DNA of 64,000 bases from Bacteroidota bacterium (lineage in GTDB: Bacteria; Bacteroidota; Bacteroidia; AKYH767-A; 2013-40CM-41-45). Position 1 is the stretch's first letter; the number at the start of each line of letters is the position of its first letter. This document shows, in pieces, positions 3,834-25,101 of the stretch. Both the position numbers and the translations under genes were made by a program. Location of the stretch: contig QQVM01000005.1 of NCBI GenBank assembly GCA_003389385.1, positions 62,001-126,000 of the forward strand. Direction: 5' to 3'. The notes beneath the pieces were generated by a model. The model ran no database searches. It was not told where the DNA came from and was given only the letters and a program-made list of their open reading frames with translations.

Positions 3834-3854
3834 AAAATAAATTTCTAGAAAGGT

Positions 3855-5543: not shown

Positions 5544-5546
5544 AAA

Positions 5547-6680
5547 TTATTTTTCAGAAAAAGTTGTAATGGTCATTGTTTGATTGTGAAGCTCACATTT
5601 GGTGAACTTGGATGACGGAGAGATTTCACCGTAAGAGTAGAACCCGGTAATGGCTGTATTTTCTCCGTATACGGCGCGAACCACCTCTACTTCTTCTTCA
5701 ATTCTTTGATTCAGTACAAGTTTACGGCCCACACAACTGATAAGAATGGCCAGTTCCGGGTTGTTTTTGTTCAGACTGTTTTGTGCTGCATTGGAGGCTC
5801 CTTCGATCAGACGATCCATGTTCGCTTTCATTAGCTGCGCGTATGCACCTTCAGGCATATTGCCTGCAAAGGTCAGAGACTTGTCCTCTTCATTCACACT
5901 CAGTATCGTCCGTACAATCGGATCATCATTTTCTGATGTTCGAATGCAAAGAGGAAATAGCAATCCTGATCCTGGAAGTTCTTTTGAGTAATCGCCGAGA
6001 TACATCTTGTAAATTTCAAGTGCCGGTTTACCGTCTAGTTCGTAGAGTATGTTCCCTTTTGATCTGGTGATCATCCGTTCCGGACCAAATGAATCCCAGC
6101 CGCCTACGCTTCCATAAGTGACAGATAAGCTGTTGCCGTAAAATCCTATTGCGACAATATTTCCTTCTTTGGGTTTTTCATCAAGTCCGACCAGTGTCGA
6201 TTGAAATCTTGTACCGTCTCCGGCTAAGCCTCCGGTAAGAATGGTATCTTCTGGAAGTCCTTTCAATAAGCCTTCCACCAACTCACTTCCGTTGACTAGC
6301 TGTCCGTCGCTAAGGACAAGCACATTCTTCAATCCAATTGGGTCAAGAGAAATTGCCAGTTCATAGCCTGCGTTTTCACTGTTGTGCAGATCCTTTATGT
6401 TTACTACAGCAGATTTTATTTTTGTTTTCTCGAACCTGATTGCTGTAAGCGAAATGGTATCATCATTGACTTGTGTATCGATGATTTCTCCGGAAGTGGT
6501 ATTCAAAAGTATTTTTGCATTCGGAAAAAAATTTCTGATTTCATCATAGATCTCCGCTTTCTGAAGAAGAGCTGTGCTGCCGAAACCTATTACGAGCGAA
6601 TAGTTGCTCATTTCCGGATCGTCATTACGCAATGTTTTCCAGCCTTGTCCTGAAGTAAATTGTTTCTGGTGAATTTTCAT
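5547..6680 (-). CDS. FIST-domain (FIST_N + FIST_C) signal-transduction protein
   Basis: The ATG at 6680 is chosen over an upstream TTG at 6740; it gives MKIHQKQFTSGQGW, a normal soluble N-terminus. The protein is about 377 residues. The first two thirds match FIST_N (TTSGEIIDTQVNDDTISLTA; LVLSDGQLVNGSELVEGL; TGGLAGDGTRF) and the last third FIST_C, ending with GFYSYGEISP, a hallmark of the family. FIST domains are intracellular ligand-binding modules proposed to sense small molecules such as amino acids. Being the first gene of an operon with a PAS kinase and a receiver, it is probably the sensory input. It carries no signalling output domain of its own. Confidence 0.9.
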   Translation of the reverse strand: MKIHQKQFTSGQGWKTLRNDDPEMSNYSLVIGFGSTALLQKAEIYDEIRNFFPNAKILLNTTSGEIIDTQVNDDTISLTAIRFEKTKIKSAVVNIKDLHNSENAGYELAISLDPIGLKNVLVLSDGQLVNGSELVEGLLKGLPEDTILTGGLAGDGTRFQSTLVGLDEKPKEGNIVAIGFYGNSLSVTYGSVGGWDSFGPERMITRSKGNILYELDGKPALEIYKMYLGDYSKELPGSGLLFPLCIRTSENDDPIVRTILSVNEEDKSLTFAGNMPEGAYAQLMKANMDRLIEGASNAAQNSLNKNNPELAILISCVGRKLVLNQRIEEEVEVVRAVYGENTAITGFYSYGEISPSSKFTKCELHNQTMTITTFSEK

Positions 6681-6951
6681 TTTTATCGATTTTGATAATC
6701 TTACAAAAATCAGATGAGGATGTTTAATAAAAATCTTCAAATTTCTGGCACAATTCGATTTGATTGTTTAATCTGTAAAAAGTGCTATTTGCTGTATTAT
6801 TTCGTACCCAAATTGAAATGAACCAGAAGGGCGCTTGAAAATCAGGGAATTAAAGAAATAGATAGAGTAAATTATCTAATGAAGAAGGTTGAGGGATAAA
6901 CAAATCGATGAAAAATATTACAAATTAAAAATGCTAAATTTTAATCAGGAC

Positions 6952-10061: not shown

Positions 10062-12026
10062 ATGCATATTTTACAGGATTTTGTTATCATAATGATTGCC
10101 GCTATTGCGGTACTGCTATTGTTTTCCAGACTGAAGCTTCCTTCCGTGATAGGTTTTCTATTCACCGGTTTCATCATAGGTCCTTCAATGACAAACATTG
10201 TTTCTTCTACGCACGAGATTGAACTGTTTGCTGAAGTGGGTGTCATGCTTTTGATGTTTACCATTGGACTTGAGTTTTCGCTGGAAACTATCAGACGAAT
10301 GACTTTTGAAGTGCTTGTACTTGGCAGCCTTCAGGTAGTGATCACCATTGCTGCAGTGCTCACTTCAATGCTTTCACTTGGTTACGGACTTCCGGAATCC
10401 ATGGCAATTTCATTTATCGTATCCATGAGCAGTACAGCTATTGTAATGAAGCTGCTGCATGACCGGGGGAAACTCCGAACTGTTCATGGCAGGATCATGA
10501 CAGGCATACTACTGTTTCAGGATTTTTGTGTTATCCTGTTCATCATCATGCTGCCTCTCTTCGCTTCAATCCGTGAAATCGAAGCGTTTCCGGTACTTAC
10601 TCAATTATTCAAATCCTTGTTCCTGGCCAGTTTGATCTTTGTGCTTGCAAAATATTTCTTTCCTAAGATTTTTGATTATGTCTGCAGATTCAGATTGAGA
10701 GAAACCTTCATGCTGCTTGCTCTTTCCATGTGTTTTGGCCTGGGTTTAATTACAGGGCACTTTGGCTTTTCACTTGCCATGGGCTCCTTTGTTGCAGGAA
10801 TGATATTGGCGGAAAGCCAATATCTGCACCAGATTGAAGCGGAGATAAAATCCCTGCGAACAGTATTTATCTCCCTGTTTTTTGTTTCCATCGGAATGCT
10901 TCTTAATCTCGAATATGTAGCAATGAACGGTTGGTGGGTTCTGGCAGGTGTAGTGGGATTAATCGCACTTAAATTTCTCCTGATTTTTCTCATTCTTCTG
11001 CTCATGCGCTATCCCGTAAATATATCGTTGGGTGCCGCGGCAAGTCTGGCACAGATAGGTGAATTTTCATTTCTCCTGCTGACAATGTCAAGCCAGATGA
11101 ACATTCTCACGGATTCCCAGTTTCAGTATTTTCTAGCCATCACGATCATTTCCATGGTGCTGACACCCTTTATCGTTATACTGGGAGAGAAAATTGCGTA
11201 TCACAAGAGGTTCAGGCAGAAGTTTGTTCATTCTGAAAAACTTGCTGAAATGGAGAACCATATAATTATCGCTGGATTCGGAATCAATGGAATGCACCTG
11301 GCTCGCATATTCAAAGTGCTCGGAATACCATATTCTGTAATTGAATTTAACCCGATCACAGTAAAGAAATACAGGATGTCGGGTGAGAACATTATGTTCG
11401 GCGATATCACGCATGCGGATAACCTAAGACACCTTGGAATAGAGAAAGCTTCCATGATGATTGTCGCGATATCAGATTCTGACTCCACCAGAAAGGCTGT
11501 TGAATTGGCTCGCAGCATGAATCCTTCCATACAAATTATCGTTCGCTCAGAATATTTGCATGAAATGGAATTACTGTATAAGAAAGGAGCGAATGAAGTT
11601 GTATCGCAAGAGTTCGAAGCAACTATACAGGTGGCTTCCCAGGTTTTGAAGAAACGCGGAATATCCGACCAGATAATTCACATTCACAACCTGATGCTGA
11701 GACAGGAACAATATCATTTCTTTGAAGCGGATGCTGTGAATGAAGCTTCTTTTAACCTTTCTGAAATGGCGGCCATTAATGAATTATGTGACCTCTATTT
11801 GGTAAGATTCAGTCTTAAAATTTCAGGAATTACCGCTGCTCATCTGAATGAAACTTTTCGCTCTGAACAACTGAATGTTGCTATATTGGGAGTGATTCGA
11901 AAGGACCGGATTATTCGTGAGCAACTGGAAAGTGCTGTTGTTCAGAAGCATGATTCACTGATACTTTTCGGAGTGCAAAAGCATATCGACAAAGCGAAAG
12001 ATTTTCTGGATACTTATCTTGCTTAA
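10062..12026 (+). CDS. CPA2-family monovalent cation:proton antiporter (KefB/KefC-like) with RCK domains
   Basis: 654 residues. The first about 385 residues form 12-13 membrane helices of the Na+/H+ exchanger fold (opening IMIAAIAVLLLFSRLKLPSV; FTGFIIGPS; ASLAQIGEFSFLL). A Rossmann TrkA-N/RCK domain follows from about residue 398 (IIIAGFGINGMHLARIF, with the GxGxxG nucleotide loop), then a TrkA-C domain at the end. Such proteins exchange K+ or Na+ for protons and are gated by nucleotides or adducts at the RCK domain. It faces the universal stress gene at 12023, overlapping it by 4 bases tail to tail. Ion specificity is not determined. Confidence 0.92.
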   Translation: MHILQDFVIIMIAAIAVLLLFSRLKLPSVIGFLFTGFIIGPSMTNIVSSTHEIELFAEVGVMLLMFTIGLEFSLETIRRMTFEVLVLGSLQVVITIAAVLTSMLSLGYGLPESMAISFIVSMSSTAIVMKLLHDRGKLRTVHGRIMTGILLFQDFCVILFIIMLPLFASIREIEAFPVLTQLFKSLFLASLIFVLAKYFFPKIFDYVCRFRLRETFMLLALSMCFGLGLITGHFGFSLAMGSFVAGMILAESQYLHQIEAEIKSLRTVFISLFFVSIGMLLNLEYVAMNGWWVLAGVVGLIALKFLLIFLILLLMRYPVNISLGAAASLAQIGEFSFLLLTMSSQMNILTDSQFQYFLAITIISMVLTPFIVILGEKIAYHKRFRQKFVHSEKLAEMENHIIIAGFGINGMHLARIFKVLGIPYSVIEFNPITVKKYRMSGENIMFGDITHADNLRHLGIEKASMMIVAISDSDSTRKAVELARSMNPSIQIIVRSEYLHEMELLYKKGANEVVSQEFEATIQVASQVLKKRGISDQIIHIHNLMLRQEQYHFFEADAVNEASFNLSEMAAINELCDLYLVRFSLKISGITAAHLNETFRSEQLNVAILGVIRKDRIIREQLESAVVQKHDSLILFGVQKHIDKAKDFLDTYLA

Positions 12027-12853
12027 ACTTCACGTATGAATGTGAGCATGGGTGTCTTGCTGTGAAAAACCATCTGCCGGGTCAGACTTTTTCCGAAAAG
12101 TTTTTCAAGGAATGTGAGTTCATGCGTGAACATTGCCAGCAAATCAGCATTGATCAGCTCCATGTAAGCATCAATGCCGTCGACTACTTTGCTGTTCTTG
12201 GAAATGTGAAAAATGATTTTTTCGTAATTGGTTTTTTCGATTAATGATTGAAGCACTTTTTCTTTATCAGGCTTTTCTGCAGAATCGGGGGAAACAACAT
12301 GCAGAACATGAATTGTGGAACTGAAAATTCTGGCAAGCGGTACAAGAGCGTCTAGCTCCTCTTCCAACGTCCACATGTTGGTAGGGTATACTATATGTTT
12401 TAGTCCTTTGAACTCTGCATTTTCAGGCACCGTTATAACAGGGAGACTGCTGTATCCTATTACAGATGCTGCAGTGCTGCCCATGAACAGGCGGCGAATC
12501 GGACCTCCACCTCTTGTTCCCATTACGATCAGTTCAGTGTCATTCTCCTTGGCATGTGCCTCAATCGTCTTCTCAATCGGAAATCCCTTTCTGATAGCAA
12601 AACTGACTTGCAGGTTAACTCCGGCATAATCCCTGATCTTCCTGATCAGCTCTGCAAACTTCCGGCTACTTTTTTGCGTAAGTTCCTTTTCAATTGTTTC
12701 TGTGCTTTTCAACTGAGCCGTATTGGATGCTTCATCAGTAAACAAAACATAAAGCAATAAAAGTTCCGATTCAAGTTCAGTGGCAAGCCTGGATGCATAC
12801 ATCACCGCTACTTCTGACTGAATGGAAAAATCGGTAGGAACAAGGAATTTCAT
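12023..12853 (-). CDS. Universal stress protein, tandem UspA domains
   Basis: 276 residues with two UspA domains. Domain 1 begins FLVPTDFSIQSEVAVMYA and keeps the nucleotide-binding signature GTRGGGPIRRLFMGSTAASV (G-2x-G-9x-G-S/T). Domain 2 is more degenerate and ends near LFGKSLTRQMVFHSKTPML. The protein is cytoplasmic. It lies 50 bases downstream of the calcium-type P-ATPase on the same strand, so it is probably the last gene of the ion-transport operon. Its 3' end overlaps the 3' end of the antiporter gene. Confidence 0.9.
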   Translation of the reverse strand: MKFLVPTDFSIQSEVAVMYASRLATELESELLLLYVLFTDEASNTAQLKSTETIEKELTQKSSRKFAELIRKIRDYAGVNLQVSFAIRKGFPIEKTIEAHAKENDTELIVMGTRGGGPIRRLFMGSTAASVIGYSSLPVITVPENAEFKGLKHIVYPTNMWTLEEELDALVPLARIFSSTIHVLHVVSPDSAEKPDKEKVLQSLIEKTNYEKIIFHISKNSKVVDGIDAYMELINADLLAMFTHELTFLEKLFGKSLTRQMVFHSKTPMLTFIREV

Positions 12854-12903
12854 AACTGCCTAATTGAATTGTTTAAAAATGATTGACATAATTTTCAACA
12901 ATT

Positions 12904-15495
12904 TTAAAGATAAGCATTATTTCTGGTCCTCTTCCTCCTGAAATGCTTTTCAATTTCAACAATCCAAAAAACAATGCTCGAAACTGCAAGAGTGATTGCA
13001 AGTTCATTTAGAGACAGTGGCTGAGTCTTGAATATCTCATTCATTACCGGATGATAAATAATAAGTATCTGCAAAGAGCAGGTGATTACCATGGCAAGCA
13101 GCATCGGGCGATTTGAGAAAACTCCGATTTTAAAAATTGAATCAGCACCGGATCTGATTGCCATTACATGTCCGAGCTGACTGAAGCAAAGAACGGTAAA
13201 TGCCATAGTCTGCCAGTTCTCTTTGCCCTGGTAAATTGACCATGCCTGAATTCCGATAGTAAACACACCCATGAGAAAACCAATCCAAAGAATGTGAAGC
13301 GCCATTCCATCGGCAAAAATACTTTTACGAGGGTCTCGTGGAGTTCTCTTCATAATTCCTGATTCAGCTGGCTCTGAGGCCAGCGCCAAACCAGGCAGTC
13401 CATCTGTTACAAGATTAATCCAGAGAATGTGAATTGCAAGCAGTGGAATAGGTAAGCCAAAAAATGGAGCAAGAAGGATAGCCCATATCTCCCCTGAGTT
13501 GCCGGTCATGATATACTTAATAAACTTCAGGATGTTGTCAAAAATTCTTCTGCCATGACTGATTGCGGAGATAATAGTGGCAAAATTATCATCAAGCAAT
13601 ATCATGTGAGAGGCTTCCTTGGAAACTTCTGTGCCGTTGATACCCATTGCTACTCCAATGTCGGCGTTCTTTAGTGCAGGGGCGTCGTTCACGCCGTCTC
13701 CGGTCATCGCGACATAGTGATGCTTGTGTTGTAAGGCATTCACAATTTTCAGTTTCTGCTCCGGACTGACCCGTGCATATACTTTCACATGCTCCACGAT
13801 CTTCTCAAACTCACTTTCCTTCATTGCGTTAAGCTCAGGACCAGTGATTACTCGGTCTTCCTCTGATGACATTATTCCCAATTGCCTTGCAATTGCAGTA
13901 GCTGTAAGTTTATGGTCACCTGTGATCATGACTGGCACAATACCGGCTTCCCTGCATTGTTTTATTGAAGAGGGAACTTCTTCGCGTGGTGGATCTATCA
14001 TTCCTGCGAAGCCAGTAAAATGCAGGCTGGTTTCAATCGTCTCAGGGCTGATAACCTGAGGAAGCACTTTCATATTTCTCAAAGCAAAACCTAAAACCCT
14101 GTGACCTTCAGAGGCGATGGAGTTTGCCTTTTCGGCAATGTCTGAAACATGTCCTGTCTGCGATTCAACAACTTTATTCAGCAATACATCCACAGCTCCT
14201 TTGGTGATTACTATATACTCTTCATCCGATTTATGTATAGTGGTCATACATTTGCGGGTTGAGTCAAATGGAAGCTCAGCGACTCTGGGGAATAGCTTTT
14301 CAAGTTCCCTCCTCATAAAACCCTTGCCTTCCGCATATTCAAGCATGGCAATTTCAGTTGAATCGCCTAAGTGCTTTCCTTCCTTGTCCTCATGTATATC
14401 ATTGTTAAGCGCCATTGCTTTGAACAAGACATTTTCATCAACAAAATTGTTCTTAAGTTCAGCTATTGGCCAATGTTCACATTCCATCACTGTCATTTTA
14501 TTGACAGTAAGAGTGCCAGTTTTGTCGGTGCAGATATAGGTCACGGATCCTAGCGTTTCAACCGCCGGCAATTTCCGGATCAAAGCTTTGCTTTTTACCA
14601 ACTTCCTGGCACCAAACGCCAGCGCGATTGTAACCAATGCAGGAAGAGCTTCTGGAATTGCAGCAACTGCGAGCGAAATTGAAGTCAATAGCATATTCAG
14701 CATTGACTCACCTCTAAGACTCCCGATAACAAATATTACAGCGCAGATAAAAAGGATTATCACAGAAAGCTTTTTTCCGAATTTGCTCAGACGTTTTTGA
14801 AGAGGGGTTGTGTTGTCCTCCGTTTGAATCATGGTAGCAATTTTGCCCAATTGCGTTTTCATTCCTGTTGCAACCACATATGCGCTTCCTCTGCCGTGCG
14901 TGACAAATGTGCCTTTGTAACCCATGTTGTGTCTGTCGCCGAGTGGATAATCGCCCTGCGTAAGTTCTTTAATGTGCTTTTCGACATTTTGTGATTCACC
15001 CGTGAGTACCGATTCATCAGTTCTGATTTGCTGACTTTCAAAAAACCTCAGATCGGCAGGAATCATGTCACCTGCTTCAAGGATCACTACATCCCCGGGT
15101 ACCAGCATCGTTGCGGGAATCACACTCACTTCATTTCCTCTTTTAACCCTTGCATGGAGTGCAGCCATTTCTTTCAATGCTGCAATCGCTTTCTCTGCCC
15201 TGTATTCCTGAATAAAACCTACAAGGGCATTCAGAATTACAATGGCCAATATGATAATTGTATCAGTGATATCTCCAATCATTCCGGATACAATCGCCGC
15301 AGCAATCAAAATGAGTATCATGAAGTCTGTCAGCTGGCCTGCAATCATAGCAGCTACAGATTTCTTCTTGTGTTCTTCTATCTGGTTAGGCCCATACTCT
15401 TCCTGTCGTTGTTTGCAAACGACTTTGTCCAAGCCTTCAGGAGAAGTGTTTAAGAGTTGGGTAATTTCAGAAAGGGGCAGAAGGTGCCAGTTCAT
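12904..15495 (-). CDS. Calcium-type cation-transporting P-type ATPase (P2A-like)
   Basis: 863 residues. The N-terminal cation ATPase domain is followed by the actuator loop TGES (165-168), the phosphorylation site D324 in CTDKTGTLT, the hinge TGDGVNDAPALKNADIGVAMG, and a C-terminal six-helix domain. Ion-site residues resemble SERCA site II: NSGE in M5 and NLVTDG in M6. The M4 motif reads PEALPA instead of the commoner PEGLPA, keeping the Glu. It exports Ca2+ from the cytoplasm using ATP; another divalent cation cannot be excluded. It lies 7 bases behind the Ca2+/cation antiporter gene, so two calcium exporters with different energy sources share an operon. Confidence 0.92.
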   Translation of the reverse strand: MNWHLLPLSEITQLLNTSPEGLDKVVCKQRQEEYGPNQIEEHKKKSVAAMIAGQLTDFMILILIAAAIVSGMIGDITDTIIILAIVILNALVGFIQEYRAEKAIAALKEMAALHARVKRGNEVSVIPATMLVPGDVVILEAGDMIPADLRFFESQQIRTDESVLTGESQNVEKHIKELTQGDYPLGDRHNMGYKGTFVTHGRGSAYVVATGMKTQLGKIATMIQTEDNTTPLQKRLSKFGKKLSVIILFICAVIFVIGSLRGESMLNMLLTSISLAVAAIPEALPALVTIALAFGARKLVKSKALIRKLPAVETLGSVTYICTDKTGTLTVNKMTVMECEHWPIAELKNNFVDENVLFKAMALNNDIHEDKEGKHLGDSTEIAMLEYAEGKGFMRRELEKLFPRVAELPFDSTRKCMTTIHKSDEEYIVITKGAVDVLLNKVVESQTGHVSDIAEKANSIASEGHRVLGFALRNMKVLPQVISPETIETSLHFTGFAGMIDPPREEVPSSIKQCREAGIVPVMITGDHKLTATAIARQLGIMSSEEDRVITGPELNAMKESEFEKIVEHVKVYARVSPEQKLKIVNALQHKHHYVAMTGDGVNDAPALKNADIGVAMGINGTEVSKEASHMILLDDNFATIISAISHGRRIFDNILKFIKYIMTGNSGEIWAILLAPFFGLPIPLLAIHILWINLVTDGLPGLALASEPAESGIMKRTPRDPRKSIFADGMALHILWIGFLMGVFTIGIQAWSIYQGKENWQTMAFTVLCFSQLGHVMAIRSGADSIFKIGVFSNRPMLLAMVITCSLQILIIYHPVMNEIFKTQPLSLNELAITLAVSSIVFWIVEIEKHFRRKRTRNNAYL

Positions 15496-15502
15496 TTTAT
15501 TT

Positions 15503-16498
15503 TCAACTTACATTGTAAAGCAAGATCATCATCAGGACGTATACCAGCAGAATAAAAGCAGAGTCAATTGCCAGTTTCCACTTGCGAGCTGATTTGAACA
15601 ATATCCCGGTGATGCCGATTGCTGTGATGATGATTGTACCTAAAATGGGTATGACATGGTTTTGGCTTGTGTACAAAAGAATTGGGCCCTTAGTATGAAA
15701 GATATCATCAATTGCAAGAATGATGATATTGAAAATATTTGAACCGAAAATATTTCCAATGGCCAGGTCAATAGTGCCTAAGCGGATGGCTGAAATTGAA
15801 ACGACAATTTCAGGAAGTGAGGTGGATGCTGCAATGAAGAGTGTTCCAAAAAAACTCTGTCCCATGCCACTAATGGCCGCCAGATGCTTGCCGAAGTATG
15901 GAAGTGCCATGGCTCCTGCAATAACAAGGACTGCATTGAAAGAATAGCGTAATATCACATCTCTCAATGTAAGTTCACTTTCCTGATGATAGGTAAGTCG
16001 CACATGATGTCTTTTTTCATAAACATACAATACCCGAATAGCTATAAAATAAAGAATGATGAATAGTATGCTCGATCCTCCTATCCATCCGATATGACCG
16101 AATACACCAGGCATAAGTATTGCTACTGCTACAATGCTGAGCATTACAATTCCAAGTGATGCGGCAATTACATGGCCTGGCTGAGCAACTGATGTAAGTG
16201 GCTTGGCGGGATTATAAAAAAGATCCATGATTGAAATGATAAGTATGTTAAAAGCGCAGCTGCCTACAATGTCACCAACCGCAAGGTCTGGAGCGTCCAC
16301 AAGTGCAACGGAGCTGATGCCTGTCATCAGTTCTGGTAAAGAAGTCACGGATGCCATAAGCATGATGCCCATGAACATTTTACCCCACCCCAGCATGTCA
16401 GCCAACATGTCACCGTAACGGGAAAGTCTTGAGCCTCCGACTACTATCAGGGCTGTTGCTCCGATAAATCCTGCCAGATAAAGAATTATATCACTCAT
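15503..16498 (-). CDS. Calcium/sodium antiporter (CaCA superfamily, YrbG/CaxA-like)
   Basis: 331 residues, about ten membrane helices arranged as two inverted halves. The two alpha-repeats are plain: VTSLPELMTGISS with DLAVGDIVGSCAFNI in the first half and STSLPEIVVSISA with DLAIGNIFGSNIFNI in the second. The acidic and Ser/Asn residues that bind Ca2+ and Na+ are in place. It exchanges Ca2+ for Na+ or H+ at the inner membrane. Its start overlaps the end of the Na/Pi transporter gene by 8 bases, and its stop is 7 bases before the P-type ATPase, indicating translational coupling in one operon. Confidence 0.92.
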   Translation of the reverse strand: MSDIILYLAGFIGATALIVVGGSRLSRYGDMLADMLGWGKMFMGIMLMASVTSLPELMTGISSVALVDAPDLAVGDIVGSCAFNILIISIMDLFYNPAKPLTSVAQPGHVIAASLGIVMLSIVAVAILMPGVFGHIGWIGGSSILFIILYFIAIRVLYVYEKRHHVRLTYHQESELTLRDVILRYSFNAVLVIAGAMALPYFGKHLAAISGMGQSFFGTLFIAASTSLPEIVVSISAIRLGTIDLAIGNIFGSNIFNIIILAIDDIFHTKGPILLYTSQNHVIPILGTIIITAIGITGILFKSARKWKLAIDSAFILLVYVLMMILLYNVS

Positions 16499-18158
16499 GA
16501 TAGGTCATTTCGCCGGCCAAGCCGCTGTGTGAAGTATTTTCTGCTTGCAGATTGCTAACTGCAAGTAAAAGTGATTTTTTACAGGAATACAATTCCTTTT
16601 GAACATTGAGCAGGGTGGAAGCTTCAAATTCTGTGAGCTGTCCGCCTTTTAACAATCTTATCGTCTCGCCCTTTGCTTCGGATTCCATTACGGCAGCACG
16701 GCTGATCTCGTCGCTTATTCTTTCCGGAGAAATTAGTCCGTTTCTGATCAATGATTCCATTTCTGATATAAATAGATTCCAGCTTTTTGAAATACTCAAA
16801 TTCTGTCCGTGAATGAGATCATTGATTGAAGATTCAAACTCATTAATGTTGTGGGAAATATCCATAACAGCTTTGGCTGCATATACGCTTTGCCTGACTG
16901 AATTAATTATTTTCTGCAAGGCAGTTACATCCTCAGGGCTAAGATTATTCTCCTGTATTCTTGCGTAATACGAGAGTATGTCTCCTTCACTTTGCTTCAG
17001 TTTTTTGTACTCTTCATCTTCATTGAGTTTTCTTTTGGTCGCGGATCGTAAATTCTCGAGAAACCCGTTTTTATGCATTTCCGCTCTGCAAAGAATCAAA
17101 CCTGTGAGTTGAAGAGTCTTTTTTAACAGTGCAGTTGATTCATTTCTCAAAGCATGAATTGCAAGGGCAGGCATAAAGGGTTCCTTTTCACTGATAAATG
17201 AAAATCCGTTTTGAGCTTCATGTATGAATTTACTTTCCAGCCAGGTAGCAAATCTGCTCAGAATGGGAACAAAAATTGCTATTGCAATCAGGTTGATTGT
17301 TGTCTGAAATGCTACAAGACCAATCAAAGGATCTTTAATTCCAAGATAGTTTTCAATGAAGAAGATGATCCACTTCAGTCCGGCATATGCAGTAATCGCA
17401 GTGATGATATTGTAAATGAAATTTCCGAACGCAACACGTTTCTTATCGCTTGTTCCGGTCATTCCCCATAGCAGAATTTTAATTGTTGTGCCTACTTCCG
17501 AGCCAATGACAACTGCGGCAGCAGACGGGAAAGTCAGCATGCCAGAGTAAATCGCTGTGAGTGTGATTGCCACTGTGGCAGAACTGGACTGAATGATGGT
17601 GGTGAGAATGAAGCCTATGATGACAAATACGAATGTTCCGTACTGGTTGAAAGCGGCTATATTGAAATCGCGGACCAGAACTAAAGCTGAGTCTTTCATG
17701 TAGCTGAGCCCGAGAAACAAAACCCCAATTGCAAAAAATATTGAAAAGAAATTGAATAACCTTTTGCTCTTCTCGCTGAAGAACATGCCAATCGCAGTCA
17801 AAGAAATGAGCGGAAGTGAATATCTGAGTATATTCAGCTTGAACCCTACAGTTGCAACAATCCAGCTGTCGAGTGTCGTCCCCAGATTAGTGCCGAGTAT
17901 AACACCCAAAGCATTACGGAAAGTAATAATGCCTGACTCAACAAAGGCGAGAACAATCAGTGAAACCACAGAGCTGCTTTGTACAATTCCTGTGACTATC
18001 GCACCGCCTGCAATTGCTTTGAACAGGTTCTGAGTGTTTCGCTTAAGAAAAAGTTTTACAGAACGCCCCGAAACATTCTTCAGCCTGTTCTCCAGCATAC
18101 TCATGCTGAACAGGAAGAAGCCAAGCCCGGCGAGAAATTTCCATAACTCCCAAGTCAT
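16491..18158 (-). CDS. Na/Pi-cotransporter II-related protein with C-terminal PhoU-like domain
   Basis: 555 residues. The membrane half (about 1-310) has the two inverted repeats of the family, each with a QSSS motif (GIVQSSSVVSL and IIQSSSATVAI) followed by GTNLGTT and GSEVGTT. The C-terminal 200 residues are helical and acidic, like PhoU. The related Na+/phosphate symporters take up, or in some bacteria export, phosphate. Direction and substrate are not provable here. It starts 4 bases after the TerB-like gene and overlaps the calcium antiporter gene by 8 bases. Pairing phosphate and calcium transport in one transcript is notable. Confidence 0.9.
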   Translation of the reverse strand: MTWELWKFLAGLGFFLFSMSMLENRLKNVSGRSVKLFLKRNTQNLFKAIAGGAIVTGIVQSSSVVSLIVLAFVESGIITFRNALGVILGTNLGTTLDSWIVATVGFKLNILRYSLPLISLTAIGMFFSEKSKRLFNFFSIFFAIGVLFLGLSYMKDSALVLVRDFNIAAFNQYGTFVFVIIGFILTTIIQSSSATVAITLTAIYSGMLTFPSAAAVVIGSEVGTTIKILLWGMTGTSDKKRVAFGNFIYNIITAITAYAGLKWIIFFIENYLGIKDPLIGLVAFQTTINLIAIAIFVPILSRFATWLESKFIHEAQNGFSFISEKEPFMPALAIHALRNESTALLKKTLQLTGLILCRAEMHKNGFLENLRSATKRKLNEDEEYKKLKQSEGDILSYYARIQENNLSPEDVTALQKIINSVRQSVYAAKAVMDISHNINEFESSINDLIHGQNLSISKSWNLFISEMESLIRNGLISPERISDEISRAAVMESEAKGETIRLLKGGQLTEFEASTLLNVQKELYSCKKSLLLAVSNLQAENTSHSGLAGEMTYHE

Positions 18159-18162
18159 ATGC

Positions 18163-18564
18163 TTACCTTAATAAATTTCCCAGTTTACCCAGCGCAACAA
18201 GCTCCGATTTGTTTTTTCCTGAAAAGGATTCTGCAATGGCATTGGCTGTTTTCCAAATCATGGCTTTCACTTCCGGGTTGAACAACTTTGAATTGGCTTT
18301 GTAATACTCTGCAAATTCACTCATGCATTCCTCAGGATCAGGCTCATTCTCTACAAGCCAGTCGAAGACGATTTCAATTTGGAATGCAGCATCGCTTCCA
18401 AATTCGTCAAGACTATCTTCAAGAGCCAGCCAGTGTTTTTTGACATCTTCTTTGAGCTTCTCTTTTTCATCCTTATGCACGACTTTATCTGATTTAGCTA
18501 TTGCATAGCATGCTTTGGAAACCATCTGGTAAAATCGTTTCATTTGTTCACGGCTCTCTTTCAT
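18163..18564 (-). CDS. Small helical protein, TerB-like
   Basis: 133 residues, all-helical by composition and soluble. The section KACYAIAKSDKVVHKDEKEKL resembles the acidic helix turn that characterises TerB (tellurite-resistance B) domains, in which Asp/Glu residues bind a metal such as Ca2+. The match is by pattern only. It is the first gene of the ion-transport operon, 4 bases before the Na/Pi transporter gene. A regulator or metal-buffering partner of the transporters is an inference from context. Confidence 0.6.
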   Translation of the reverse strand: MKESREQMKRFYQMVSKACYAIAKSDKVVHKDEKEKLKEDVKKHWLALEDSLDEFGSDAAFQIEIVFDWLVENEPDPEECMSEFAEYYKANSKLFNPEVKAMIWKTANAIAESFSGKNKSELVALGKLGNLLR

Positions 18565-18716
18565 GTACTGAATTGATTGTATTGAATTGCTTCGACTGTT
18601 AATATTTCTGGTTGTTTTTTTATAGTTGACATTCAGAAATTAATACTTGTAAGATTTCTCAACTCAAACTGATATTTGCTTATGAATGATTTCAGATTAG
18701 AATTAATTCTTCTGAA

Positions 18717-19472
18717 CTACTGAGCAATCCAACCTCCGTCAACAGCCATTGAAATTCCGGTTACAAAGGATGCTTCAATTGAGCAAAGCCATAAAACAGC
18801 ATTTGCAACCTCGTCTGGTTGTCCTAGTCTTCCAATAGGTTCCATAGCGGCAAATTGCTCTTCTACTTCTTTTTTATTTCCAGTGATTCTGTCTATCATA
18901 GGAGTTTTTATGGCACCCGGACAAACCGCATTGATTCTGATTCCAGATTTAGCAAATTCGAGGGCAGCGGTCTTGGTAAGCCCTATCACACCGTGTTTGG
19001 ATGCCACATAAGCCGGCAAGCCCTGATATCCAACAAGGCCGGCAATTGAAGCACAGTTGACAATTGCCCCACCGCCTTGCTTCAGGATTTCAGGGATTTC
19101 ATGCTTCATGCAATTCCAAACTCCTTTCAGGTTGATGCTTATGGTTTTTTCCCAGTTTTCTTCAGAGCACTCAACAGTATTTCCCATGACACCTTCAATT
19201 CCGGCATTGTTAAATGCGTAATCAAGCCGTCCGAATTTCTTGTGCGTTTCCTTGATCATTCTTTGAATGTCAGAGGTGGAAGACACATCGCATTTTACAA
19301 AAAATGATTCTGCGCCTGATGCTTGTATTGTTTTTAGTACTTCATCATTTTCAAGCCAATCAGCAAGCACGACTTTAGCGCCTTTATTAGCAAAGGCAAT
19401 TGCTGTGGCTCGACCGATGCCGAATGAAGCCCCTGTGATGAGTGCAACTTTATCTTTGAAATTATTTTCCAT
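18717..19472 (-). CDS. SDR-family NAD(P)-dependent oxidoreductase
   Basis: 251 residues, classical SDR. The cofactor loop is TGASFGIGRA (about 14-23), NNAG at 88-91, and the catalytic set S142, Y155, K159 (YVASK). The C-terminus SMAVDGGWIAQ is the usual SDR ending. D38 after the second strand (LADW) favours NAD+. The substrate is unknown; annotation pipelines often call this type glucose 1-dehydrogenase or 3-oxoacyl reductase without proof. It lies 109 bases downstream of the CoA-transferase gene on the same strand, at the tail of the stress/energy run. Confidence 0.9.
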   Translation of the reverse strand: MENNFKDKVALITGASFGIGRATAIAFANKGAKVVLADWLENDEVLKTIQASGAESFFVKCDVSSTSDIQRMIKETHKKFGRLDYAFNNAGIEGVMGNTVECSEENWEKTISINLKGVWNCMKHEIPEILKQGGGAIVNCASIAGLVGYQGLPAYVASKHGVIGLTKTAALEFAKSGIRINAVCPGAIKTPMIDRITGNKKEVEEQFAAMEPIGRLGQPDEVANAVLWLCSIEASFVTGISMAVDGGWIAQ

Positions 19473-19581
19473 GGGATTTAAATGTTTAAGTTGAATTACA
19501 ATAAAGTAAAAAGTCTTATTTTAGTTAATTGCATTTATCATGTTCTGCATATGACAAATGTTAGGAAAAATATCGTTTACT

Positions 19582-20868
19582 TCATGGCGCTGATTTTCCA
19601 AACCTTTTGTGAATTTCACGTTCAATCCATTCTCTGTGGTCAGGATGGCTGATTTTCAGTAATTCTGCAGCTCTCTGATGCATTGTTTTACCAAATAAAT
19701 TCACTACTCCGTATTCAGTAATTACATAATGAACGTGCGCTCTGGTAGTCACAACGCTGCTTCCTTGTTTGAGAAAAGGCACAATTTTAGATTCCCCCTT
19801 TGCTGTCACAGAGGGCATTGCTATTACGGGCTTTCCGCGTTCTGACAATGCAGCTCCGCGCATGAAATCCATTTGGCCACCAACACCTGAATACTGGTAG
19901 GTTCCCAGTGAATCGGAACAAACCTGGCCGGTGATGTCAATCTCCAGTGCTGAATTTATCGCCACCACGTCTGGATTGGCCCGTATTGTTTTGGTGTCAT
20001 TGACATATCCTACTTCTAAAAATGAAACCTGGGGATTATCATCCACAAAATCATACAGTCTCCTTGTGCCAATTACAAAGCCGGTTACAATTTTTCCCCT
20101 GTGTTTTTTCTTATAACGATTGGTAATTATCCCTTTTTCAACAAGAGGTAAAAGCCCGTCTGAAAACATTTCAGTATGTATTCCCAGATCTTTGTGATTA
20201 TGAAGACAAGAAAGAACCGCGTCCGGTATGGAGCCGATGCCAAGCTGCAAACATGATTTGTCATCGATGAGTTCGGCACAGAATTTCCCAATCGTTCTGG
20301 CCGAATCGTTTATTTTTTCAGTATAGCTGACCTCAGGAAGATCATCAGATGCTTGAACCAAATAATCAATGTCCTTGATATGTATAAAACTATCTCCGTG
20401 TGTTCTGGGCATTTTAGGATTCACCTGAGCAATGACCAATTTGCTGTGCCGTACTGCCGACCTCGCAATGTCAATTGAAGTGCCAAGGGAACAAAAACCA
20501 TGTTTGTCTGGTATTGATACATGAATGAGAGAGGCATCCAAAGGCAATATTCCTTTCTCAAACAAAAGATGAATTTCACTTAGAAAAACCGGACTGTAAT
20601 CTCCGTAATCTGCATTCACAAGTTCCCTGATATTCCTGGAGACAAAAAGTGAATTGATAAAAAAACTTTTATCAAATTCGGGCACATCAAAAATATTCTC
20701 TCCAAGAGTACTTATGCTGACAAGCTCCACATTTTTTATTTCTCCGGCTCTTTTCATGAGTGTTCTTATGAGCAACAGGGGAGTGGCTGCGCTTCCGTGA
20801 ATGAAAAGCCTGCTGTTATTGCTAATTGCGCTGATGGCTTCTTCAGCAGTGGAATAGTTTAATCGCAT
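19582..20868 (-). CDS. Acetyl-CoA hydrolase/transferase family protein (4-hydroxybutyrate CoA-transferase-like)
   Basis: 428 residues, full length. The N-terminal half contains VSIPDKHGFCSLGTSID, and the C-terminal half contains FLEVGYVND, INSALEIDITGQV and GVGGQMDFMRGA, all family signatures. The enzyme moves CoA between short acyl groups, for example acetyl-CoA and 4-hydroxybutyrate or succinate, which can conserve energy as acetate is released. The substrate is not fixed by sequence. It starts 28 bases after PEP synthase, suggesting joint expression and a role at the acetyl-CoA/pyruvate node. Confidence 0.9.
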   Translation of the reverse strand: MRLNYSTAEEAISAISNNSRLFIHGSAATPLLLIRTLMKRAGEIKNVELVSISTLGENIFDVPEFDKSFFINSLFVSRNIRELVNADYGDYSPVFLSEIHLLFEKGILPLDASLIHVSIPDKHGFCSLGTSIDIARSAVRHSKLVIAQVNPKMPRTHGDSFIHIKDIDYLVQASDDLPEVSYTEKINDSARTIGKFCAELIDDKSCLQLGIGSIPDAVLSCLHNHKDLGIHTEMFSDGLLPLVEKGIITNRYKKKHRGKIVTGFVIGTRRLYDFVDDNPQVSFLEVGYVNDTKTIRANPDVVAINSALEIDITGQVCSDSLGTYQYSGVGGQMDFMRGAALSERGKPVIAMPSVTAKGESKIVPFLKQGSSVVTTRAHVHYVITEYGVVNLFGKTMHQRAAELLKISHPDHREWIEREIHKRFGKSAP

Positions 20869-20896
20869 AAGTCTACCATTAATATCTCTTTATTCT

Positions 20897-23290
20897 TTAT
20901 GTCCGTTTTTTTTCAGCCTCAACAATCAGCTTTATTCCTGTCAATAAGGCATCCGGATTAAATGATATACTGTCAATTCCAATACTGACCAGAAAATCGG
21001 TAAATTCAGGAATGTCGCTGGGTGCTTGGCCACAAAGCCCGCAACTAATGTTCTTTCTTTTTGCAGCTTCTACAGTTGTACGGATCAAGGCTTTTACTGC
21101 CGGATTCATTTCATTAAAAAGGTAGTTCACATGTTCTGAGTCTCTGTCCAGCCCCAGTGTAAGTTGAGTAAGATCGTTAGAGCCAATTGAAAATCCGTCA
21201 AACAATTCTGCATATCTGTCTGCATTGATTGCATTGGAAGGTATCTCTATCATTACATATATCTCCAATCCATCTTTCCCTTTTTCAAGTCCATTCTTAT
21301 GCATTTCTGCCAATACTTGTTCTCCTTCTTCTGTTGTCCTGCAAAAAGGGATCATGAGTTTCACATTCTTCATTCCGTAATCATTCCTCACGCTCATCAT
21401 TGCGGCGCACTCCAGTTCAAATGCCGGACGGTAAAAGTCGCTGTAGTATCTGGATGCACCTCGCAATCCGATCATCGGATTTTCTTCTTCCGGCTCAAAG
21501 AAACTTCCTCCTGCGAGGTTTGCGTATTCATTACTTTTGAAATCACTCATTCTCACCACTACATCTCTCGGATGGAAAGCCGCGGCAACAAGTGCGACTG
21601 ATTCAGAAAGTTTTTGAACGAAGTAATCTTTTCCACTTTGATATCCTTCTGTCAGTTCATCAATCAGCTTCCTTTGAGTTTCATTTTTTACCCTGTCCGG
21701 CATTAGCAAAGCCAATGGATGCACTTTAATGGAATTAGTGATTGTAAACTCAAGCCTTAGCAATCCGACTCCTTCATTTGGATAGAGTGAATATTCAAGT
21801 GCCCGGTCCGGGTCCGAAACAATTAGCATGGCTTTGGTGGAAGGCATTTTGATGTCACCTATTTCTTCTTCATTAACATTGAATTCAAGCCTGTCTTCAT
21901 ATACATAGCCGGTTTTACCTTCTGAACAGGATGCAGTGATAGATTGGCCGCTCTTGATGCTTTGAGTGGCATCCCCGCATCCGACGATGGCTGTAATTCC
22001 GAGCTCTCTTGCTACAATAGCAGCATGACTTGTTCGCCCACCTTTGTTGGTGATAATGGCTGATGCCTTTTTAAGTATTGGATCCCAGTCGGGATTTGTA
22101 ATATCTGTAACCACAATATCACCTTGCTTCACTTTGTAACTTTCAGAGGGACTAGTCAGCACTATGGCCTGACCAACACTGATTTTATTTCCCAAGGCAA
22201 TTCCCTGCGCGAGCACCTTTCCGCTTCCTGAAAGTTTGTAAACTTTTCTTTTGTCGATCTTGGTTTTGAAATGTACTGTTTCAGGCCTTGCCTGGACGAT
22301 GTAAAGCTGCCCATCAACACCGTCTTTCGCCCATTCTATGTCCATGGGCATATTGTAGTGCTTTTCAATTGCATGACACCAGTCGGCGAGTTTGAGGACT
22401 TCATCGTCAGCAAGGCAAAAAATACTTTTTAGCTCATCCGGAGTGGTTTCATTATTGGTAGTTGAATCAAGCGAATCATTACCTGACTTTGCAGAATATT
22501 TAAGTGTGTATTCCTTCTTGCCGAGCAATCGATGCAGTAAAGGATGAAATCTTTTCTGTGCAAGGTTTCTTTTAAAGACCATCCATTCATCTGGTGTGAC
22601 TTTTCCCTGAACTATGTTTTCACCCAAGCCCCAGGTTCCATTTATTACAATGAAATCTCTGTGTCCGCTGTCTGGATCAATAGTGAATGCAACTCCAGAT
22701 GATGCCAAGTCGCTCCGAATCATTTGCTGAACGCCTACAGATATGGCGATATCCATATTTCCAAAGCCCAAGTCTATTCTGTATTTGATGGCCCTGTCGG
22801 TGAAAAGGGATGCATAGCATCTCAAAACTGCTTTCAATACCTGCTTCCCTCCACGGATGTTCAGGAATGAATCCATTCGTCCGGCAAAGCTGGCGCCGGG
22901 AAGATCTTCTGCAGTGGCACTGCTTCTTACCGCTACGTCCCTGAATTTGCCTTGAAGGTCGTGCATACTTTTGTATGCTTTCAATATCTCTTCCTGAAGA
23001 TCTGGTGGAATCTGGCTTTTAAGCACGAGATTTCTGCATGCTTCTCCACTCTTAGTCAGACTTGATTCATTATCAAGGCTAACTGCACTCAAAATTTCAT
23101 TGAGTTTCTTTTTTATATTATTAAAATTTGTAAAATATCTGAATGCATCTGCAGTAACTACAAATCCACCTGGCACATTAATTCCATTCGGTCGCAGTAC
23201 GTTATACAATTCACCAAGCGAAGCATTCTTTCCTCCGACGATGGAGGTGTCTGTAATCCTGATTTGACTATAGTCTAAAATATAAGTCAT
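20897..23290 (-). CDS. ppsA: Phosphoenolpyruvate synthase
   Basis: The start at 23290 (MTYILDYSQIRITD) is chosen; an ATG 54 bases upstream adds 18 residues without family similarity. About 797 residues, near the usual 790. In order: a PEP/pyruvate-binding ATP-grasp domain (GGKNASLGEL; VRSSATAEDLPGASFAG), the phosphohistidine swivel domain (GGRTSHAAIVARELG, catalytic His in TSHA) and the TIM-barrel PEP domain with SIGSNDLTQ and the catalytic Cys loop CGLCGQAPSD. It makes PEP from pyruvate and ATP with release of AMP and phosphate. It lies between a pair of universal stress genes and a CoA-transferase. Confidence 0.95.
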   Translation of the reverse strand: MTYILDYSQIRITDTSIVGGKNASLGELYNVLRPNGINVPGGFVVTADAFRYFTNFNNIKKKLNEILSAVSLDNESSLTKSGEACRNLVLKSQIPPDLQEEILKAYKSMHDLQGKFRDVAVRSSATAEDLPGASFAGRMDSFLNIRGGKQVLKAVLRCYASLFTDRAIKYRIDLGFGNMDIAISVGVQQMIRSDLASSGVAFTIDPDSGHRDFIVINGTWGLGENIVQGKVTPDEWMVFKRNLAQKRFHPLLHRLLGKKEYTLKYSAKSGNDSLDSTTNNETTPDELKSIFCLADDEVLKLADWCHAIEKHYNMPMDIEWAKDGVDGQLYIVQARPETVHFKTKIDKRKVYKLSGSGKVLAQGIALGNKISVGQAIVLTSPSESYKVKQGDIVVTDITNPDWDPILKKASAIITNKGGRTSHAAIVARELGITAIVGCGDATQSIKSGQSITASCSEGKTGYVYEDRLEFNVNEEEIGDIKMPSTKAMLIVSDPDRALEYSLYPNEGVGLLRLEFTITNSIKVHPLALLMPDRVKNETQRKLIDELTEGYQSGKDYFVQKLSESVALVAAAFHPRDVVVRMSDFKSNEYANLAGGSFFEPEEENPMIGLRGASRYYSDFYRPAFELECAAMMSVRNDYGMKNVKLMIPFCRTTEEGEQVLAEMHKNGLEKGKDGLEIYVMIEIPSNAINADRYAELFDGFSIGSNDLTQLTLGLDRDSEHVNYLFNEMNPAVKALIRTTVEAAKRKNISCGLCGQAPSDIPEFTDFLVSIGIDSISFNPDALLTGIKLIVEAEKKRT

Positions 23291-23415
23291 GCATGAAAAA
23301 TTGAGTGCAAAATGCAGATTGATTTTACCAGGTTTATCAACCATATATGTAAATGCATGAGTCAGACTACTCTTGAAGACTAGACCAGAACTTCAACATT
23401 AATCTCTTTTCAACT

Positions 23416-24258
23416 TCATGCAGGAATCGCAAGCAGCGGGATACGAATGCTGTATGCAGTTTTCTTTGTGATGCTCTTGTGAAACAATTTGTCAAAGAAT
23501 CCTTTTTTCTTACGGGGAGAAAGAGCGAGGAGATCAGTGTTATCCTTTTCACAAATCTTCAGAATTTCCTTGCTGATGTCTTCGCCTCGTGTATGCTTGA
23601 AGTTCAGTTTGAGCTTGTTGAATTTCTTTTGAACAGCTGCCTTGTAATCATTGAAAGCGAAATCATCTGACAACTCAGTATTCTCACCGTTATCTATGTG
23701 CAAAATGCAAATTGAGCTGTTGAGATGCGTCTGAAACTCTGATAAAAAAACTACTGCTTTGATGTCTTTTTTGTCATAGGAAGTTGCATAAGTGATCTTC
23801 GCGGGAATTTTATCCTTACAACCTGAAGGCACAGCAAGTACAGGGCAATTGGCATTTATCATAGTCTTTGCCGCGAAACTGCCCATTACTACTTCACGTT
23901 TTGCTGTTGCGCCAATGGTCCCCATCACAATCATATCGGCATTTTTCTTTTCGCAAAACTCCAGAAGGCGAAGATTTTCAGGACCTCTCTCCACAGTGAC
24001 GGAAATTCTTGCATCGTTACCTGATTTCCTCAGAGCTGATTTAATCACATCCAGCTTCCTCACAAGGTTTTTCCTTGTGTCTTCGTTCTCACGCCTGCTC
24101 TGTGAAAGAGGATAAAAGCCGCTTTCATAACCTATGAAGGAATGATAGAGAATCAAATGCGCGTCAAATTTGTATGCAAGTTCTGCTGCATACCAGATGG
24201 CTTCATCCGCAGCTTTGGAAAAATCAGTCGGAGCAATAATTGTTTTAATACTACTCAT
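23416..24258 (-). CDS. Universal stress protein, tandem UspA domains
   Basis: 280 residues. Domain 1 starts IIAPTDFSKAADEAIWYA and holds the ATP-binding signature GTIGATAKREVVMGSFAAKT. Domain 2 (from about residue 150) lacks a full glycine signature but ends LFHKSITKKTAYSIRIPLLA, like the other Usp proteins here. It starts 3 bases after the stop of the preceding Usp gene, so the two are coupled. About 125 bases separate its stop from the PEP synthase start, leaving room for a second promoter. Confidence 0.9.
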   Translation of the reverse strand: MSSIKTIIAPTDFSKAADEAIWYAAELAYKFDAHLILYHSFIGYESGFYPLSQSRRENEDTRKNLVRKLDVIKSALRKSGNDARISVTVERGPENLRLLEFCEKKNADMIVMGTIGATAKREVVMGSFAAKTMINANCPVLAVPSGCKDKIPAKITYATSYDKKDIKAVVFLSEFQTHLNSSICILHIDNGENTELSDDFAFNDYKAAVQKKFNKLKLNFKHTRGEDISKEILKICEKDNTDLLALSPRKKKGFFDKLFHKSITKKTAYSIRIPLLAIPA

Positions 24259-24261
24259 AAT

Positions 24262-25101
24262 TTATTTTTTTGTTTTTTTGAAAACTAAGAGTGGAACCTT
24301 CGCATTAAAAGAGTATTCCGCCGCCTTGCTTGATAAAAATATCTTGTCATAAAGTGTCCTGTTTTGCTGAGTAAACATGATCAACATGGATGGTTTCTTT
24401 TTTTCGATAGCAGATTCAATGCTGCTTATCAGTGACTTGACTATATTGGATTGCTTTATCGAAAAACTGATATCATATTCAGAATATTTTTTGACAGCAT
24501 TTTCAATTATTTTTGGATTTTCCATTGCTTTGGTAAGTGTATTGATATGAAGTAATTCCACACTAGCTTTTAAAGGATCGGCAAATGCAACCACCTTTTT
24601 CAATTCATAGTTAAGATCCGACAAGTCCGATGCGTACAGCATTTTCTTAACCGGGCTCCTTTCGTATGAGGATGGCACAGCAATGACAGGAACGGAAGAC
24701 TGTGTAATAAGGTGAGAAGTATTTGTTCCGAAAAACTTTTTTATTCTTCCGGCGCCAAGTGTGCTAATGCATATATAATTAAATTTTTTTGAGGCAGCAT
24801 AATCCATGATGTTACTGTCGGCAAATACGGCACTCCTCACAACATAATTTACCTTGCCTGGCTTTAGTTTCATACTCTTGTAAACTCCTTCTGTAAATTC
24901 TTTGAGTTTTAAATAAGTATTCTCAATTTCTGACTTTTCAAATTTTTCAAAATCAGTATTCAACTTAGGTGATGGAGGGCTGAGATATATTGAATGAAAA
25001 AATGTGAGCTCCAGCGGTGTTTGTGTGTTAAGCTGTATTGCAAAACGCAGCCCCGCTTTCGAGTTTTCCGAAAAGTCGGTTGTGACAAGTATTTTTTCCA
25101 T
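24262..25101 (-). CDS. Universal stress protein, tandem UspA domains
   Basis: 279 residues in two Usp domains. The first opens ILVTTDFSENSKAGLRFA; its nucleotide signature is altered (STLGAGRIKKFFGTNTSHLI). The second ends in IFLSSKAAEYSFNAKVPLL. It is first in the leftward run Usp, Usp, ppsA, CoA-transferase, SDR. Its start faces the zinc-ribbon gene across a 182-base region that contains a 16-base dyad (25192-25207). It is clearly a paralogue of the genes at 23416 and 12023 but strongly diverged, so the duplication is old. Confidence 0.88.
   Translation of the reverse strand: MEKILVTTDFSENSKAGLRFAIQLNTQTPLELTFFHSIYLSPPSPKLNTDFEKFEKSEIENTYLKLKEFTEGVYKSMKLKPGKVNYVVRSAVFADSNIMDYAASKKFNYICISTLGAGRIKKFFGTNTSHLITQSSVPVIAVPSSYERSPVKKMLYASDLSDLNYELKKVVAFADPLKASVELLHINTLTKAMENPKIIENAVKKYSEYDISFSIKQSNIVKSLISSIESAIEKKKPSMLIMFTQQNRTLYDKIFLSSKAAEYSFNAKVPLLVFKKTKK

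Follow-up and report, generated by a model that had tools for sequence, protein, structure and literature searches.

A tightly linked pair of genes from calcium-transporter families, a CaCA-type antiporter (CaX) and a P2-type ATPase, recurs in several phyla and lies here within a larger gene array. On balance, and judging from gene content, the locus is probably a calcium-export module with two energy sources, set in an island of universal stress protein (USP) and low-energy stress genes, rather than a conserved calcium-phosphate system. In such a module a CaCA antiporter driven by a Na+ or H+ gradient would work beside an ATP-driven P2-type pump, so that export could continue if either energy source failed. 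The array as a whole may be a low-energy or low-oxygen survival locus, following a logic like that of the lxa locus and of the DosR regulon, to which ctpF belongs. Its TerB-like protein would be an accessory of such islands that may act as a metal-ion sensor or modulate the transporters, and its Na/Pi gene would have joined the array in this lineage. We infer the ion specificity and the transport direction of both CaX and the ATPase; the induction signal and the roles of the TerB-like and Na/Pi proteins are likewise presumed. Bacterial reasons for keeping calcium low, and the use of calcium in dormancy or anoxia, are poorly understood. The recurrent antiporter-ATPase pair, found partly in USP islands and in several phyla, offers a concrete and testable gene set, for which a literature search found no paper, and it places an orphan TerB-like family in a genomic setting.

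Layout of the array

The window, by which we mean the whole stretch of 64,000 nucleotides analysed, holds five minus-strand genes between positions 12023 and 18564, head to tail with gaps or overlaps of +4, -8, +7 and +50 bases; to this extent the cluster described in an earlier sequence-only reading is real (Table 1). Upstream, the same strand continues with an SDR, a CoA-transferase, a PEP synthase and two USP genes, so that the five genes are the distal half of an array of ten, presumably co-transcribed. With three USPs, a PEP synthase and a CoA-transferase, the array has the gene content of a DosR/lxa-type USP locus. Its last USP retains one nucleotide-binding motif of the G-2x-G-9x-G(S/T) type, and the gene overlaps that of the Kef-type antiporter, on the opposite strand, by 4 bp.

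Table 1. Genes of the array and its convergent neighbour (positions in the window)
Feature	Position	Strand	Basis
Kef-type CPA2 antiporter, convergent to array	10062..12026	+	family match
Tandem USP	12023..12853	-	PF00582 x2
P2-type cation (probably Ca2+) ATPase, 863 aa	12904..15495	-	PF00122/PF00689/PF00690/PF13246/PF00702
CaCA-family antiporter (CaX), 331 aa, two alpha repeats	15503..16498	-	PF01699 x2
Na/Pi cotransporter, NptA type, 555 aa, C-terminal PhoU-like domain	16491..18158	-	PF02690 x2, fold
TerB-like (PG1108-like) acidic helical protein, 133 aa	18163..18564	-	ORF + predicted fold
SDR oxidoreductase	18717..19472	-	family match
Acetyl/butyryl-CoA transferase-like protein	19582..20868	-	family match
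PEP synthase (PpsA)	20897..23344	-	family match
USP, second in array	23416..24258	-	family match
USP, head of ten-gene array	24262..25101	-	family match

Sigma-70-like sites occur in the window at chance level (15 against 15.7 expected), as does the motif TANNTTTG (45 against 54 expected). The latter is absent from 18565-18716, and its nearest occurrence is at 25511-25518 on the minus strand, upstream of the array head. The promoter search found no oxygen-regulator site, and a search by eye found no obvious common motif upstream of the stress genes. A riboswitch or other RNA element was rejected, as Rfam gives three tRNAs only in the window. A plasmid origin of the block was also set aside: a distant plasmid blastn gave no record at 80% query cover, and the rows listed reach at most 15%, under ATPase genes.

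The antiporter-ATPase pair

CaX has the two repeats typical of the CaCA family, TSLPE/GSCAFN and TSLPE/GSNIFN, with a Glu in each TSLPE, and is the sole PF01699 gene of the genome. It scores 89.7 bits against the calcium/sodium antiporter model TIGR00367, short of the cut-off of 179.65. NCX_Mj (MJ0091) likewise has two alpha repeats with TSLPE, in a match of 39 bits only, but the second repeat ends in GSNIAD there and in GSNIFN in CaX.

The ATPase has the P-type domains and the DKTGTLT phosphorylation motif. Its earlier description as 'calcium-type' stands in part: the top NCBIfam models are Ca2+ ATPases, but all fall below their curated cut-offs (TIGR01522, 698 bits against 798.3; TIGR01116, 629.3 against 703.4; TIGR01517, 500.8 against 507.05). 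Its closest solved structures are the Listeria calcium ATPase lmo0841 (LMCA1) and SPCA1, the Listeria pump being among the best solved-structure sequence matches, with 629 bits over residues 12-850. The M5 motif is GNSGEI in the window ATPase and GNLGAI in the Listeria pump, so that what we take to be the site-I glutamate is kept. At positions which, by motif, we presume to correspond to SERCA E309, N768, E771, N796, D800 and E908, the window ATPase keeps the Ca2+-site residues of M4, M5 and M6, and the Glu of M8 is Gln. Among 27 linked ATPases (two motifs were counted on the commonest displayed variants only), the residue is kept at the positions equated with E309 in 27/27, E771 in 26/26 displayed, N768 in 24/26 displayed and D800 in 25/27, and the E908-equated M8 position is Gln in 17/17 displayed. 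The sub-threshold Ca2+ ATPase scores and this M8 Gln would suit a pump for another cation, such as Na+ or Mn2+, in which case the pair would not be two calcium exporters; given the matches to lmo0841 and SPCA1 and the largely conserved positions equated with E309, E771, N768 and D800, we regard this as very improbable. The genome's second P-type ATPase gene (G000:C4), considered as possibly broken, has an intact 822-aa frame.

The sequence-only reading had pointed to two independent exporters of calcium families, and these prove to be a genuine recurrent pair. In 31 of 92 CaX loci (window included) the ATPase is a tight same-strand neighbour, downstream in 26 and upstream in 5, and 55 of the 92 are without such an ATPase in the examined stretch; the named CaX loci are the best 80 of 563 and not a random sample. 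The set of 91 other loci leaves out L064 and L082, whose contigs, judged by their length, are those of L027 and L034, as well as L038 and L080, which are one contig twice, with no ATPase in the stretch; counted once, it makes the tight pairs 31/93. The ATPase threshold was 100 bits, and an 80-bit fragment at the edge of a contig (L100) was scored as none. Pair loci lie on Bacteroidota, Nitrospirota, Proteobacteria, Ignavibacteria and Persephonella contigs, and the tight pair is present in 12 of the 14 other genomes of the class that carry this CaX. The CaX-ATPase pair is the conserved core of the cluster, and its adjacency is more than chance because it is conserved across phyla.

The distances on the CaX tree correlate with those on the ATPase tree (r 0.56 over 27 pairs, 0/2000 permutations), with 4 of the 31 pairs dropped for want of a full-length frame from simple ORF calling. 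Shared species history may explain this correlation. In the window clade, partners are mismatched between the two trees. Two further genomes have TerB ahead of CaX-ATPase: the order is TerB-CaX-ATPase in L035, where a remnant of a related SDR precedes TerB, and USP-USP-USP-TerB-CaX-ATPase in L054 (Daejeonella oryzae).

Stress genes, the TerB-like protein and the Na/Pi gene

USPs are found near CaX in 22/91 loci by HMM and 14/91 by tblastn, leaving 69-77 of the 91 without one, and near TerB in 12-13 of 46 loci (40 fetched, L149-L152, L035 and L054). Both compare with 0/20 control regions, a small set of 290 kb. The TerB loci also contain Hsp20 (6/46), HemN-like (7/46), baeRF5-like (10/46) and M50-CBS (5/46) genes, each at 0/20 in controls; an HK/RR cluster is also present in 1/20 control regions. 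Stress genes (USP, Hsp20, DnaJ, M50-CBS, HemN-like) are the recurring neighbours, which the earlier reading had not considered. On a Methylotenera contig the succession is phosphoketolase, acetate kinase, CaX, Kef, USP, Kef, ATPase. The genome's second TerB shares its island with USPs, M50-CBS, DnaJ, Hsp20, a PAS kinase, an RR-CRP regulator and ScdA/hemerythrin.

The TerB-like label itself is tentative. The predicted fold (pLDDT 90.6) best matches PG1108 of P. gingivalis (2h5n), which we take to be classed as TerB-like, over 105 aligned residues at 3.9 A and with a Z of 8.1, which is below the level advised for helical bundles; identity is 12% and the Foldseek E 0.85. No TerB profile matched in Pfam or NCBIfam, whose filters drop weak matches: no family was found at E<=0.001, and at E<=5 just unrelated weak Pfam matches. 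The terA, terC, terD, terE and terZ families had no match among the window proteins scanned. The family is present in 85/395 class genomes, and D26, E33, E49, D53, D68 and E121 are acidic in 91-100% of 35 family rows; with these positions conserved, metal binding is possible.

The Na/Pi protein carries QSSS in each of its two PF02690 repeats, as expected of the NptA-PhoU type. The PhoU-like tail noted earlier holds up in the predicted model, of which residues about 327-544 match PhoU-type structures (Z 14.0-17.1, ranks 1-7); PF01895 (PhoU) finds no match in the protein even at E<=5. S. aureus NptA is described as carrying a C-terminal PhoU domain (PMC13170248), and the two proteins share a Na_Pi_cotrans core followed by a PhoU-like tail. 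Unlike S. aureus NptA, the window protein has a tail that PF01895 does not recognise, and its gene lies within a putative calcium-export operon.

A balance of calcium and phosphate, with Na/Pi transport and calcium export co-expressed against precipitation or for acidocalcisome-like calcium-polyphosphate stores and TerB as calcium sensor, was the proposal of the sequence-only reading. The tight packing of the Na/Pi gene (+4, -8), the predicted PhoU-like tail and a Nitrotoga contig with CaX, Kef, USP, Na/Pi and ATPase within one stretch are in keeping with it. Against it, a Na/Pi gene is near CaX in 1/91 other loci and near TerB in 0/46, so the five-gene order, sought in the other genomes, was seen nowhere else (0/14 other class genomes with this CaX, 0/91 other loci); the 16 Na/Pi loci examined in other class genomes, the best 16 of 145 with a match, have neither CaX nor TerB. 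By the refuting condition that the earlier reading had set itself, an order confined to one genome, the link to phosphate does not hold up as a conserved one, and we have dropped both a conserved five-gene system and any conserved partnership of Na/Pi with CaX or TerB. Nor is the Na/Pi gene the only phosphate gene or route of this genome, which elsewhere has a PHO4/Pit transporter and, apart from it, a PhoU. The Na/Pi gene looks like an addition to the array seen in this genome only, and we consider calcium-phosphate balance improbable as an account of the locus.

Homeostasis under salt or alkali, in which a cation island manages Na+, K+ and Ca2+ during osmotic or alkaline stress and the USPs are incidental, is unlikely but deserves more weight. 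Kef-type genes occur in 12-15 of the 91 other CaX loci and convergent to the array in the window. An NhaA-type protein is found in L039 (Pfam), an NhaA-type gene directly before CaX in L069 (by sequence cluster), a Mrp-like set in L029 (named by eye) and a CPA antiporter in L047, and Kef, NhaA and Mrp neighbours fit salt or alkali stress equally well. However, energy or redox stress is indicated by the PEP synthase, CoA-transferase and three USPs of the array and by the Hsp20, HemN-like and RR-CRP genes around TerB.

Comparison with DosR and lxa

A fuller scheme, and a long shot, is a dormancy module in which TerB, as a calcium or metal sensor, would set the two-energy-source exporter when respiration stops, with NptA-PhoU recruited in this lineage. 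If true, cytosolic calcium and phosphate would be lowered together, without calcium phosphate precipitating in energy-starved cells, and the slot separating TerB from CaX would be open to one sodium-coupled partner or another. In L069, where TerB is degenerate, an NhaA-type gene follows it in this slot, and in the window Na/Pi does.

USPs belong with the DosR dormancy regulon, in which we know of no antiporter partner, TerB or Na/Pi. The low-oxygen-activated (lxa) locus of Burkholderia cenocepacia is described as having six USPs and a heat shock protein (PMC6127331). The likeness lies in the clustered USPs, which in lxa accompany the heat shock protein; lxa belongs to another phylum, and in the available portion of that source the P-type ATPase, CaX and TerB are not named ('ATPase', 0 occurrences). 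In M. tuberculosis, USPs are reported to be tied to the dormancy regulon (PMC11841059), and ctpF is given as the only P-type ATPase gene in the DosR regulon (PMC9180918). There a P2-type calcium ATPase is under a hypoxia/dormancy regulator. The locus here resembles, by analogy, this case of ctpF under DosR control, and the recurrent antiporter-ATPase pair would carry the ctpF/DosR link over to organisms in which it is apparently undescribed.

Layout of the locus

An earlier, sequence-only reading described a calcium/phosphate-balance operon of five genes, encoding a TerB-like protein, a Na/Pi transporter, a Ca2+/cation antiporter (CaX), a calcium-type P-ATPase and a universal stress protein (USP). 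The operon is real, compact and built of known protein families: the ORF listing returns the five head-to-tail frames at exactly the coordinates proposed, and Pfam assigns Na_Pi_cotrans, Na_Ca_ex, P-type ATPase and Usp families, with no Pfam family matching the first, TerB-like gene. These five do not form a self-contained unit, as same-strand genes continue upstream. Together they make a ten-gene array with two USPs and a PEP synthase at its head and the five genes as its distal half. A Kef-type antiporter gene is convergent with the last USP, overlapping it by 4 bp. Promoter motifs occur at chance level. Divergent from the array head is a DUF389 membrane protein, whose sequence cluster (member picked by eye) is present too in three of the comparison loci fetched around CaX genes (L047, L098 and L110).

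Features of the window and of comparison loci (L-numbers)
Feature	Location	Strand	Gap(s)
Five-gene operon	12023-18564	-	+4, -8, +7, +50
SDR	upstream of the five genes	same as operon	152
CoA-transferase	upstream of SDR	same as operon	109
PEP synthase	upstream of CoA-transferase	same as operon	28
Two USPs	upstream of PEP synthase	same as operon	71, 3
Ten-gene array	12023-25101	-	
DUF389 membrane protein	25586-26914	+	
Small signalling cluster (consecutive genes: response regulator, PAS histidine kinase, FIST-domain protein)	3417-6740	-	
Degenerate TerB frame, NhaA-type gene, CaX	L069:1037-3743		
Second stress island with TerB paralogue	L149:1-16001 and L255 (own genome G000, contig C3, about 204-225 kb)		
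HemN-like radical-SAM (example; six similar)	L182:5226-6581		
630-aa open frame, own genome	L256:3374-5266		

The antiporter-ATPase pair

CaX is sporadic: matches come from 6 of the order's 42 genomes at E<=1e-3 and from 15 of the class's 395 at E<=1e-30 (own genome counted), and the genus's one other genome lacks it. Of the 14 other class genomes with CaX, 12 have the ATPase gene tightly beside it on the same strand. Across 92 CaX loci (the window, class-genome loci and added named loci), an ATPase lies directly downstream in 26 and directly upstream in 5; in 6 it is on the opposite strand or at another place in the stretch, and 55 have none. CaX and ATPase tree distances correlate (r 0.56; 0/2000 permutations), which may partly be species history. 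The ATPase of the window's clade groups with those of L027 and L029 and its CaX does not, and the trees therefore suggest some exchange of partners.

CaX, the only PF01699 gene of its genome, has TSLPE in each alpha repeat. For the ATPase, the closest solved structure is the Listeria calcium pump lmo0841, and NCBIfam calcium models fit best, yet with scores under their cut-offs. At positions in M4, M5 and M6 of 27 CaX-linked ATPases that we take to correspond to the SERCA calcium ligands, the presumed equivalents of E309 and D800 are kept in 27/27 and 25/27, and those of E771 and N768 in 26/26 and 24/26 displayed; the M8 Glu is replaced by Gln in 17/17 displayed. The pair would provide calcium export with two energy sources, embedded here in a USP-type stress locus. 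The pair is conserved; its stress-island context is apparently undescribed, as no CaX-ATPase or TerB-CaX-ATPase operon was found in titles and abstract openings of open-licence literature on the pair, on TerB with calcium or USPs, and on related low-oxygen loci.

The proposed phosphate link

Two QSSS repeats are present in the Na/Pi protein, and the PhoU-like tail attributed to it is borne out by its model, where PhoU-type structures fill ranks 1-7 of the fold matches, with Z from 14.0 to 17.1; the PF01895 profile does not match the tail. The association of calcium and phosphate genes does not hold as a conserved arrangement: Na/Pi lies near CaX at a single one of 91 other loci (L114, Nitrotoga; CaX, Kef, USP, Na/Pi, with the ATPase further along) and at 0/46 TerB loci, and 16 Na/Pi loci of other genomes have neither CaX nor TerB. 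Calcium-phosphate balance may nevertheless apply in this one genome, because the operon is tight and the transporter is of the NptA-PhoU kind (compare PMC13170248), although the genome carries further phosphate genes elsewhere. The phosphate link is probably local; on our reading the Na/Pi gene was added in this lineage.

TerB and the stress-gene neighbourhoods

TerB precedes CaX-ATPase in L035, where the last codons of an SDR end ~50 bp before it (a whole SDR precedes TerB in the window), and in L054 (Daejeonella oryzae), behind three USPs. In L069 the order is USP, a short gene with a by-eye resemblance to the baeRF-type cluster, degenerate TerB, NhaA-type gene, CaX, which puts NhaA where the window has Na/Pi. 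The predicted TerB-like structure is all helical (pLDDT 90.6). Its best fold match is Porphyromonas gingivalis PG1108, with Z 8.1 over 105 residues at 3.9 A (Foldseek E 0.85), and the next match has Z 5.9. The family occurs in 85/395 class genomes, with D26, E33, E49, D53, D68 and E121 acidic in 91-100% of 35 aligned rows. A second TerB gene of the own genome sits in a stress island with three USPs, M50-CBS protease, MlaE, phosphoribosyltransferase, DnaJ, Hsp20, PAS kinase and RR-CRP regulator, followed at some distance by ScdA/hemerythrin and cytochrome c. A further open frame of this genome (L256) has an NRAMP-type-transporter-like start (by eye) and an internal Usp match.

USP genes occur by profile in 22/91 CaX and 12/46 TerB loci (14/91 and 13/46 by tblastn), and in 0/20 control regions from genomes of the same set. 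Also absent from the controls are Hsp20 (6/46 TerB loci), HemN-like radical-SAM proteins (7/46; the name is our reading of a PF04055 match), M50-CBS proteins (5/46) and a 134-144-aa baeRF5-like protein (10/46, including L186, L197, L191 and L211; the scanned member scores under the Pfam cut-off). HK/RR-type proteins occur in 10/46 TerB loci versus 1/20 controls. A Methylotenera contig reads phosphoketolase, acetate kinase, CaX, Kef, USP, Kef, ATPase. From such neighbours we infer a role in low oxygen or low energy; salt or alkali stress competes seriously with this reading, given the recurrence of Kef-, NhaA- and Mrp-type genes as well. Passages of PMC11841059 and PMC3759415 tie USPs to low oxygen, but present the P-type ATPases mentioned there as copper pumps. 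The neighbourhoods of CaX and TerB resemble known low-oxygen USP loci: among the P-type ATPase genes of M. tuberculosis, ctpF is reported to be the only one under DosR control (PMC9180918), and the lxa locus of Burkholderia groups six USPs with a heat shock protein (PMC6127331).
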